NCBI GenBank assembly: GCA_013368515.1
Contig: JABWCI010000002.1
Span: 1-64,000 of the forward strand
Reading direction: 5' to 3'
Length of the DNA: 64,000 nucleotides
Origin: Candidatus Altimarinota bacterium
Lineage (GTDB): Bacteria > Patescibacteriota > Gracilibacteria > BD1-5 > UBA6164
Shown: piece after piece, positions 18,319-38,417 of the stretch
Position numbering within the stretch: position 1 is the first letter of the stretch
Layout: every line of letters begins with the position of its first letter
The notes under the pieces: generated by a model
The model's input: the letters and a program-made list of their open reading frames with translations, nothing else
The model's database searches: none
Told to the model about the DNA's origin: nothing
Translations under genes and position numbers: made by a program

Positions 18319-18337
18319 ATATCTACATAAACTAAAA

Positions 18338-18433
18338 ATATCCAGAGTGAATGTTAGAGAATAGGCTCGTTAAACATTCCAGCAACCTGCAATTGTAAGG
18401 TGCTAATTCCTACCTGTTTTACAGGAAAGATAT
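18338..18433 (+). ncRNA. SAM-I (S-box) riboswitch aptamer
   Basis: The conserved S-box blocks appear in order: TATCCAGAG, GGCTCG in the P2 loop, CAGCAACC, GGTGCTAATTCC and AAAGATA. Helices: P1 ATATC 18338-18342 with GATAT 18429-18433; P2 GAATGTT 18349-18355 with AACATTC 18373-18379; P3 ACCT with AGGT (18385-18388, 18398-18401); P4 CCTG with CAGG (18413-18416, 18422-18425). In this class SAM stabilises P1. The terminator at 18453 supports an OFF switch; ATAAC beside P1 could pair with GTTAT of the terminator when SAM is absent. Confidence 0.88.
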
Positions 18434-18452
18434 AACATCATTTTTAATAATG

Positions 18453-18840: not shown

Positions 18841-19359
18841 ATGTGAGTTAGAAAAAATTTTGAGAGGTTGAAGACTTCTAGATATTATAACTTTTGTAAT
18901 TATTTCAGTGATTACAAAGAAAATAATAATTTCACTATTTTTTTGATAGAACTTGAAAATATAGATCTAAATCAATTAAGATATAGTGAAAAAAAGATGC
19001 TTTTAAGGGTATTGGAATATATATTCAAAAATTATAGATTATATGATTTAAATGATAAATATTTAAGTGGATTTATATTTAAAAATAGTTATTGTCCTTT
19101 TCAGATAAGTGAAAGAGATTATATAATACTTAAAAAAATGCTTATATTAAAGGAACAATTATGAGGTTATTATTTAAGTAACTACAATATCTATTACAAT
19201 ATAGCACTTGATTATATAAATGAACTAAAAAAATATATATTTAAAAATGATATAAAACCATTTGATAAAATTTTACCAAATATTATGAATTTTCCTTGAG
19301 ATTATAAATTTGAAAATGGTGAAATAAAAAAAGAAAATTATAAAATTCTTTGTAACTAA
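18841..19359 (+). CDS. hypothetical protein, 172 aa
   Basis: Unrecognised, probably soluble; rich in Tyr, Asn, Lys and Ile with helical segments (NQLRYSEKKMLLRVLEYIF). The start codon is immediately followed by a UGA-coded Gly. It may be on the same transcript as the SAM-controlled gene, 98 bases upstream, if the hairpin between them is read through. It shares a terminator with the convergent gene downstream. Confidence 0.65.
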
Positions 19360-36167: not shown

Positions 36168-36310
36168 ATAATCGTATTATTAAAATTAAATATAAGTTTA
36201 TTTTACTATATAACAATAACTTGGTCAAAAAAATACCAGAATTATCTCTTGCCATTGTTAAAAAATATTTTATGAAAATACTCTTGCAATTTTAAAAATA
36301 AAAATATAAT
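36168..36310 (+). promoter_or_regulatory. intergenic with promoter for the aspS leader
   Basis: TTGCAA 36284-36289 and TATAAT 36305-36310 with a 15-base spacer. Otherwise AT-rich sequence without visible genes. Confidence 0.5.
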
Positions 36311-36316
36311 TATTTC

Positions 36317-36497
36317 ATAAGCGTTTGAGCAGAAAACAACTGCGAGCTCGAGGAAGAACAGAGAAGTCTTAGTAGAACCTTGCGAAGTCGAAAATCTTCG
36401 TTAAAAAATAAAATTAAGAATCACTATTCGGTGGCACCTTTCAAAATAATTTTGAACCGAAAGTACGAAAATATAATTTATATTTTTGTACTTTTTT
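36317..36497 (+). ncRNA. T-box-like leader of aspS (antiterminator plus terminator)
   Basis: The 3' domain fits a T-box antiterminator closely. Helix A1 TTCGG 36427-36431 pairs with CCGAA 36457-36461, followed by the 7-base bulge TGGCACC 36432-36438 (T-box core GGTGGCACC), helix A2 TTCAAAA 36440-36446 with TTTTGAA 36450-36456. UGGC of the bulge is complementary to the GCCA end expected for tRNA-Asp and tRNA-Asn. ACT 36423-36425 can extend A1 to AGT 36462-36464, which is the foot of the terminator, giving mutual exclusion. The 5' domain (36317-36420) has hairpins such as GAGC...GCTC and CGAAG...CTTCG but no standard Stem I could be drawn; AAC at 36376-36378 or 36357-36359 might be the specifier. 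Confidence 0.7.
36462..36497 (+). terminator. terminator of the aspS leader
   Basis: AGTACGAAAATATA 36462-36475, loop ATT, TATATTTTTGTACT 36479-36492, a 14-bp stem with one G-U pair, then a T-run to 36497. Confidence 0.88.
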
Positions 36498-36556
36498 ATT
36501 TATGACGCAAATAGATTTTGAAAAAATATATTTGTTGACATAACTTATGCTGGCCA

Positions 36557-36598
36557 CATTAGAGTTTAAAATTATGAAATAATTTTAATTTTCTAATG
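36557..36598 (+). other. second leader hairpin before aspS
   Basis: CATTAGA 36557-36563 with TCTAATG 36592-36598 and, inside, TTAAAATTAT with ATAATTTTAA around a GAA tip. It has no T-tract. It lies between the leader terminator and the ATG, 37 bases before the start, and may act on translation or RNA stability. Confidence 0.5.
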
Positions 36599-36635
36599 AG
36601 GAACAGTATTATTTATAACTTTATTTTTAAAAAAT

Positions 36636-38417
36636 ATGTTAAGAACACATAAATGTAGCGATTTAACTATAAAAAATGTTTGAGAAACAGTTAAATTATC
36701 TGGTTGGGTAAGTAACAGAAGAGATCATTGAGGTATTATATTTATAGATTTGAGAGATAGATATGGTTTAACACAAGTTGTTTTTGATCCTGAAGATGAT
36801 GCTAGTTCTCACTCTACAGCTTCTGATTATAGAAGTGAATATGTAATACAAGTAGAATGACTTGTAAGACAAAGACCAGAATGACAAAATAATCCAAATT
36901 TATCAACTTGAGAAATAGAAGTAATTGTTAAAAATACTACTTTGTTATCTAGATCAAAAACTCCTCCTTTTGAACTTGATGACCACTGAGAACTTGCAAA
37001 TGAAGAAATAAGATACAAACATAGATATATAGATCTGAGAAGAAGAAAAGCTTTGGAAAATGTAGAATTTAGATCAAAATTTTTAAATTATACTAGAAAT
37101 TGGTTTACATCTCATGAGTTTTTAGATGTTCAAACTCCTATTTTTACTGTTTCAAGTCCAGAAGGTGCTAGAGATTTTGTTATACCTTCTAGATTACATC
37201 CAGGTAAATTTTATGCACTTCCTCAAGCTCCTCAACAATATAAACAACTTTTAATGGTTGGTTGAATTGATAAATATTTTCAAATTGCTCCTTGTTTTAG
37301 AGATGAAGATCCAAGAGCTGATAGACATGCATGTGAATTTTATCAAATAGATTGTGAAATGAGTTTTGTTGAACAAGCTGATATTTTTGCTGTTGTTGAA
37401 TCATATATAAAAGATGTAGTTGCTGCACTTTCTCCAAAAACTGTTATGGATAATAAGTTCTATAGCATGAGTTATGAAGAATCGATGGAAAATTATTGAA
37501 CTGATAAACCAGACCTAAGATTTGGATTAAAATTTGTTGATTTAACAGATATATTTACTGAAAGTGAATTTAGTGTTTTTAAATCTGTTACAACTAGTGG
37601 TTGAGTTATAAAATCTATTAAATTAGAAGGTAAATCAATGTCTAGAAGTGAAATTGATGATTTAACAAAAGTTGCTCAAAAAGCTTGAGCTAAATGACTT
37701 GCTTATATTATCTATGATGATAATGAAGAAGGTGGGAAAAAATCACCAATTTTAAAGTTTATGTGAGAAGCAGAGATCAAAGAAATGGAAGCTAGATTAC
37801 AACCTAAAAATGGTGATATAGTATTTTTCTCAGCAGATGAATATTTAAAAGCTGTAAAAATACTAAATGTTGTAAGACTTGCTTTAAGAGATAAATTTGA
37901 ATTAGCAGATAAAAATACTCTTGCATTATGTTGGGTAACAGATTTCCCAATGTTTGAAGAAAGTGATATAAATGGTAAACTTGATTTTGCTCATAATCCT
38001 TTTTCTATGCCAAAAGGAGGTATTGAAGCATTTAATAATGATGATTTATTATCAATTAAATCTGTTCAATATGATCTAGCTTGTAATGGTTTTGAAATAC
38101 TTTCAGGTTCTATAAGAAATCACGATGTTGAATCTCTTGTAAAAGCCTTTGAAAAAGTAGGTAGAAATAAACAAGAAGTTATGGATAAATTTGGTGCTAT
38201 GTATGAAGCATTTCAATATGGAGTTCCTCCACATGGATGATTTGCAATTGGTATGGATAGATTTATGATGATATTAAAAGATGAAAATAATATTAGAGAA
38301 GTTTATGCTTTCCCTAAATCATGAAAAGCTCAAGATTTGATGATGAATGCTCCAAGTGTGATTGACGGGGAGCAACTTGATGAATTACATATTGAAATCA
38401 AAGAAGAATTAGAATAA
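36636..38417 (+). CDS. aspS: aspartyl-tRNA synthetase, non-discriminating type predicted
   Basis: 593 residues, full-length bacterial type. N-terminal OB-fold ([10 protein letters not shown]), class II motif 2 [19 protein letters not shown] and motif 3 [22 protein letters not shown] insertion between. Key point: the residues that in Pseudomonas AspRS decide tRNA specificity are His31 (RRDHGG) and Gly83 (RPEGQNN), both of non-discriminating type; E. coli has Leu and Lys. So it probably makes Asp-tRNA-Asn as well, which would need a GatCAB amidotransferase elsewhere. Expression is likely controlled by the T-box-like leader. Confidence 0.95.

Follow-up and report, generated by a model that had tools for sequence, protein, structure and literature searches.

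The leader of the aspS gene in the window (the whole 64,000-nucleotide stretch of DNA analysed, from a Candidatus Altimarinota bacterium) raises the question of whether a T-box riboswitch can be recognized where the standard long Stem I is lacking and, if so, to which class it belongs and which tRNA it senses. We conclude that positions 36317–36500 (+) very likely encode a transcription-terminating T-box for tRNA-Asn, whose Stem I is of the ultrashort (Class III) type, a reading reached without binding, transcription or expression data. The downstream gene aspS (36636–38417, +) encodes a bacterial-type aspartyl-tRNA synthetase (AspRS) of 593 aa (NF001750, 782 bits; TIGR00459, 647 bits), whose nearest named relatives come from Candidatus Gracilibacteria MAGs (94–95% identity). 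As the first-pass annotation of the locus had proposed, the gene reads UGA as Gly (14 codons); the element itself is not peculiar to this lineage.

A likely sigma-70 promoter was identified from sequence at 36284–36310 (+), comprising TTGCAA (36284–36289), 15 nt, and TATAAT (36305–36310), with a predicted transcription start at about 36317, just 5' of Stem I. This TATAAT stops 9 nt short of Stem I, and a TATAAT with at least a 5/6 match was found 4–22 nt 5' of the elements in 59 of 77 cases, whereas an equally long control stretch gave 23 of 77. Such a position and its enrichment across the element set make a hidden, longer Stem I further upstream unlikely.

Sequence comparison showed all the parts of a Class III-like aptamer in the 5' region. 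Stem I (36320–36348, +) is a K-turn hairpin of only 29 nt with a 7-nt loop, AAAACAA. Its C-stem (AGC/GCU, 36320–36322 with 36346–36348) is followed by the bulge GUUU, the tandem GA of the K-turn (36327–36328 and 36344–36345) and an inner stem (GCAG/CUGC, 36329–36332 with 36340–36343). The loop presents the specifier codon AAC (Asn; 36335–36337, +) followed by the conserved A36338; across an alignment of 28 aspS leaders this codon is AAC, once GAC, and the next base is A or G. The two helices are paired in 97.6% and 94.6% of cells in these 28 leaders, with double changes present, and in 98.3% and 99.0% in a larger set of 78 elements. In the valS-type elements L285, L287, L292, L298 and L306, the Stem I loop is longer (GGAU...AUGUCACC-like) and carries the codon GUC.

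Stem II (36349–36382, +) is closed by CGAGG/CCUUG (36349–36353 with 36378–36382), which varies among the aligned leaders as CGAGG/CCUCG, GGAGG/CCUCC, AGAGG/CCUCU and CAAGG/CCUUG, and contains an S-turn (loop E) formed by AAGAA (36354–36358) opposite GUAGA (36372–36376). UAGA is conserved and the first base of GUAGA is variable, which fits the suggested tolerance of G67U. The GAN triplets in this stem (UAGAAC, UAGACC) were considered as a specifier and rejected, being the same in the AAC and AUC classes and belonging to the S-turn. Stem IIA follows at 36383–36403 (+), with CGAAG/CUUCG (36383–36387 with 36396–36400) and the F-box-like UUCGUUA (36397–36403). It is paired in 93.6% of cells with double changes (28 leaders), and its hairpin ends in an F-box-like CGUUA or CCGUCA, the latter, the F-box of Nocardia farcinica, being present in the relatives L026 and L027. 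A purine-rich linker, AAAUUAAGAA, conserved in the leader alignment, occupies the Stem III position (36411–36420, +), and L027, L033 and L089 have a Stem III hairpin after it. The first-pass annotation was thus correct that the first 100 bases form no usual long Stem I, yet the region is structured. Of its two suggestions, an ultrashort or a new T-box class, the ultrashort one held, the codon lying in the apical loop of a K-turn hairpin as in Class III. MFE folding of the leader without its terminator was no better than that of shuffles; we consider it uninformative because short non-canonical motifs such as the K-turn and S-turn are invisible to MFE, and covariation was used instead.

The antiterminator (36423–36464, +) consists of the A1 helix (ACU-a-UUCGG with CCGAAAGU; 36423–36431 with 36457–36464), the T-box bulge UGGCACC (36432–36438), which is kept in all 28 aligned leaders, and, after U36439, the A2 helix (about 36440–36446 with 36450–36456), which is paired in 99.3% of cells with double changes at all five pairs. 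It is followed by an intrinsic terminator (36459–36497, +), a 17-bp hairpin with arms at 36459–36475 and 36479–36495 and a U-tract at 36492–36497. The overlap is shown by sequence comparison: positions 36459–36464 are common to the A1 3' arm and the terminator foot. Folding energies in isolation are -8.0 kcal/mol for the antiterminator and -14.8 kcal/mol for the terminator (z -8.0). In all 34 assessable aspS-type leaders, GC-rich ones included, an overlapping terminator with a U-tract begins 2–6 nt inside the A1 3' arm. Several distant ileS leaders displayed no clear terminator, and modes other than termination may occur elsewhere. The antiterminator, 7-base bulge and overlapping terminator foot described by the first-pass annotation therefore all held in place; its extent, 36317–36635, held only in part, as the switch ends at about 36500 and 36497–36632 is a separate insert.

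The base 3' of the bulge deserves separate mention. The aminoacylation-sensing G-U pair of T-boxes sits at the base of A2. In many other Patescibacteria elements, as in the RF00230 consensus, the position after the bulge holds G; every aligned Gracilibacteria aspS leader has U there, after UGGCACC. U36439 thus departs from the G that is canonical for the wobble pair of A2, which counts against our reading.

Leaders were fetched from 118 relatives using AspRS, and UGGCACC or UGGUACC was found 73–204 nt before aspS in 31 of 90 of them, the whole element being either there or missing. The 28 aligned leaders share four blocks 5' of the antiterminator (the K-turn hairpin, the S-turn hairpin, the F-box hairpin and the linker). 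Conservation of the pairing is shown by the 33 named pairs, in which 91.5% of cells are paired, compared with 79.3% in shuffled and at most 50% in slid controls; double-compensated cells number 132 compared with 41 in shuffles, and double changes occur in 25 of the 33 pairs. The named pairs outdid every shuffle and every slid control; the shuffle controls ignore relatedness, whereas the slid controls do not. In the 78 elements, which were found by model and whose alignment was fitted to the structure, 94.4% of cells are paired, with 571 double changes compared with 148 in shuffles. That 31 of 90 leaders have the bulge ahead of aspS, and that the named pairs outdo their controls, indicates that the likeness to a T-box is not due to chance; bulge conservation and covariation of A1 and A2 favour the T-box reading. 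Our model R1, built from the aspS leaders, matched in 74 of 380 sampled Patescibacteria genomes (all genomes compared are draft MAGs). Its matches spread across many families of the phylum, extending the first-pass view of T-boxes as found mainly in Firmicutes and Actinobacteria.

Searches with Rfam gave no direct match. At gathering score the window yielded a SAM riboswitch only and no RF00230, the leader at E<=10 hit only unrelated families with RF00230 absent, and RF00230 matched nothing over the whole genome of origin nor, at gathering score, any of ten loci tested. Below this cut-off, RF00230 aligned end to end with five relatives in the phylum (L284, L288, L309, L285 and L310; E 3e-9 to 1e-6) and more weakly with L282 (E 5e-4); in the two end-to-end alignments inspected, about 72–78 positions of distal Stem I were skipped. 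The end-to-end alignments are independent evidence of T-box homology. Since RF00230 lacks a match in the window, direct family membership rests on these relatives; the gathering score is a database threshold and not a structural feature.

Comparison across elements further showed that specifier, bulge and gene are coupled. The 36 aspS-type (Asn/Asp) elements carry AAC in 35 cases and GAC in one, with the bulge UGGC in 35 and UGGU in one, and precede aspS (33) or an aspartate--tRNA(Asn) ligase gene (1). All 41 AUC elements, two of them with the specifier read by eye, carry UGGU, with ileS downstream in 32 and ilvA in one. The remaining elements of the 77 have no such gene in the fetched downstream DNA. 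The coupling gives a Fisher p of ~1e-20, on sequences that are related. Through reading 29 new loci by eye, we obtained 19 AUC, 7 GUC, 2 AAC and 1 GAC specifiers, the AAC and GAC loci being aspS types; GUC precedes valS in other Patescibacteria, and valS was confirmed downstream for four of the 7 GUC loci. AAC also stands before the aspartate--tRNA(Asn) ligase genes at L247 and L288.

In the two nearest families, R1 often detected another element in the same genome. The second ultrashort T-box of the genome of origin (C27:73917-74081; L231 218-382) has the specifier AUC and the bulge UGGUAAU and precedes a CYTH protein gene, small ORFs and ileS. Several ileS leaders carry UGGUAAC or UGGUAAU, not UGGNACC. 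At L238 (G043:C7:616588-616734), an AUC/UGGU T-box lies directly 5' of ilvA (threonine ammonia-lyase), a biosynthetic gene and not a synthetase. GAC replaces AAC before aspS-type genes at L049 (G006) and L309 (G118), which may be natural changes from sensing one of these two amino acids to sensing the other.

Which tRNA is sensed was inferred from sequence comparison, without binding data. In the genome of origin, tRNA-Asn(GUU) ends in GCCA and tRNA-Ile(GAU) in ACCA, so that UGGC complements the former and UGGU, in the ileS paralogue, the latter. The first-pass annotation had matched UGGC to both tRNA-Asp and tRNA-Asn, which held for both; we infer that the specifier AAC selects tRNA-Asn, not tRNA-Asp. 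No AsnRS exceeded the curated cut-off in the genome of origin or in any searched genome of its order; one did in 21 of the 118 searched genomes, each of which belongs to another family of the class. Given that no AsnRS was found and that gatB is present in the genome of origin, AspRS probably also charges tRNA-Asn. A non-discriminating AspRS, inferred here and likely, with the pathway as in PMC4206432, would explain why aspS listens to tRNA-Asn.

We propose a mechanism in which tRNA binding, aminoacylation sensing and termination in the cell are all inferred. Once the leader is transcribed, AAC in the Stem I loop would pair with the tRNA-Asn anticodon GUU, the K-turn would fold Stem II back, and the S-turn purines would brace the codon-anticodon pair. 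With uncharged tRNA-Asn, the 3' GCCA would pair with UGGC, allowing A1 and A2 to close, so that no terminator forms and aspS is transcribed. With charged tRNA-Asn, the 3' end would be blocked, the more stable terminator would form and transcription would halt. As AspRS probably makes Asp-tRNA-Asn for GatCAB, uncharged tRNA-Asn would signal a shortage of its product.

Three alternatives were weighed. The leader might be tuned to tRNA-Asp, given that the regulated gene is aspS, that tRNA-Asp likewise ends in GCCA, that the loop reads GAC in a relative (L049) and in a distant locus (L309), and that T-boxes with two codons have been reported (Saad 2013, cited in PMC4206432). However, AAC is found in 35 of the 36 aspS-type elements and the loop triplet becomes AUC or GUC before ileS or valS, the Stem II GAN triplets are alike in the AAC and AUC classes, and AAC also precedes aspartate--tRNA(Asn) ligase genes (L247, L288); we regard this alternative as very improbable. 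Slightly less credible still is a translational (antisequestrator) T-box of the actinobacterial kind, in which the hairpin hides the ribosome site. Class III is indeed described as mostly translational (PMC10482949), but in the window six U directly follow the hairpin, about 140 nt separate it from the start codon, and the U-tract is kept in the GC-rich relatives L033 and L089.

A constitutive terminator or a leader unrelated to tRNA, resembling a T-box by chance, is all but excluded. In its favour, hairpins with U-runs are common in a low-GC genome, and the leader minus its terminator folds no better than shuffles. It is refuted by the covariation, and the specifier-bulge-gene coupling and the RF00230 matches in relatives also speak against it. 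A terminating T-box that senses tRNA-Asn thus remains our preferred reading.

This T-box combines features of two known classes. With the Class III ileS elements of N. farcinica and Mycobacterium tuberculosis (PMC7583486, PMC10482949) it shares a short K-turn Stem I with the specifier and a following A in the apical loop, the Stem II S-turn GUAGA, Stem IIA, an F-box, a UGGN bulge and the absence of an IDTM; the N. farcinica element itself has the S-turn G67-U68-A69-G70-A71, the F-box CCGUCA and the codon plus A in its apical loop (PMC7583486). It differs in ending in a transcription terminator rather than an SD sequestrator, in its specifier (AAC here, GUC and GAC in relatives, AUC in the studied cases), in its loop (7 nt compared with the 5–6 nt described) and in its host, Patescibacteria rather than Actinobacteria. 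In the window no pairing is visible for the IIB pseudoknot, which the N. farcinica element requires to bind tRNA; in other Patescibacteria elements, a IIB pairing of at least 4 bp was found in 12 of 27, compared with 1.5 in shuffles. Because Class III is only mostly translational in the literature, the terminator sets this leader apart as a variant without ruling it out of the class. With Class I transcriptional T-boxes (B. subtilis tyrS type; RF00230) the leader shares the antiterminator/terminator switch, the bulge, the S-turn Stem II and the F-box, whereas it lacks the long Stem I and the IDTM for the tRNA elbow. Like the amidation-gene T-box of Clostridium acetobutylicum (Saad 2012/2013, cited in PMC4206432), it would put indirect Asn-tRNA-Asn synthesis under T-box control.

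A 2008 survey placed T-boxes in few phyla, and in the open-licence literature searched we found no paper linking them to Patescibacteria. The element is a T-box; what is new is the joining of a Class III aptamer to transcription termination, the non-Ile specifiers and the phylum. It likely belongs to a phylum-wide, undescribed group of Patescibacteria T-boxes with an ultrashort, IDTM-free aptamer, termination, and Ile, Val, Asn or Asp specifiers. According to reviews, a transcriptional T-box generally depends on a long Stem I with an IDTM that accelerates capture of the tRNA while the polymerase has yet to reach the terminator, and ultrashort T-boxes act mostly on translation (PMC7583486, PMC10482949). 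The Patescibacteria leaders appear to break this rule in many genomes, which makes it testable; if our reading is true, a transcriptional T-box can do without touching the tRNA elbow, and T-boxes extend well past Gram-positive lineages. T-box control is thereby brought to a phylum in which gene regulation is little known, and an Asn specifier on aspS offers a regulatory clue to an AspRS serving indirect Asn-tRNA synthesis. At its cut-off the standard Rfam model recognizes none of the elements tested, so genome annotation will have overlooked them.

The insert between terminator and aspS (36497–36632, about 110–136 nt) is also present in L004 and absent from four further congeners. Copies of its opening ~52 nt occur at three other places in the genome (C18, C24 and C6) with 84–92% identity, which makes this part a short dispersed repeat. 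Elsewhere in the window, the SAM (S-box) riboswitch aptamer lies at 18335–18436 (+; RF00162, 51.8 bits, above gathering), and the next + strand ORF of at least 100 aa after it starts at 18841 (172 aa). A c-di-GMP-II riboswitch (RF01786, 62.6 bits) was observed in a Patescibacteria genome at L301 2433–2516 (-).
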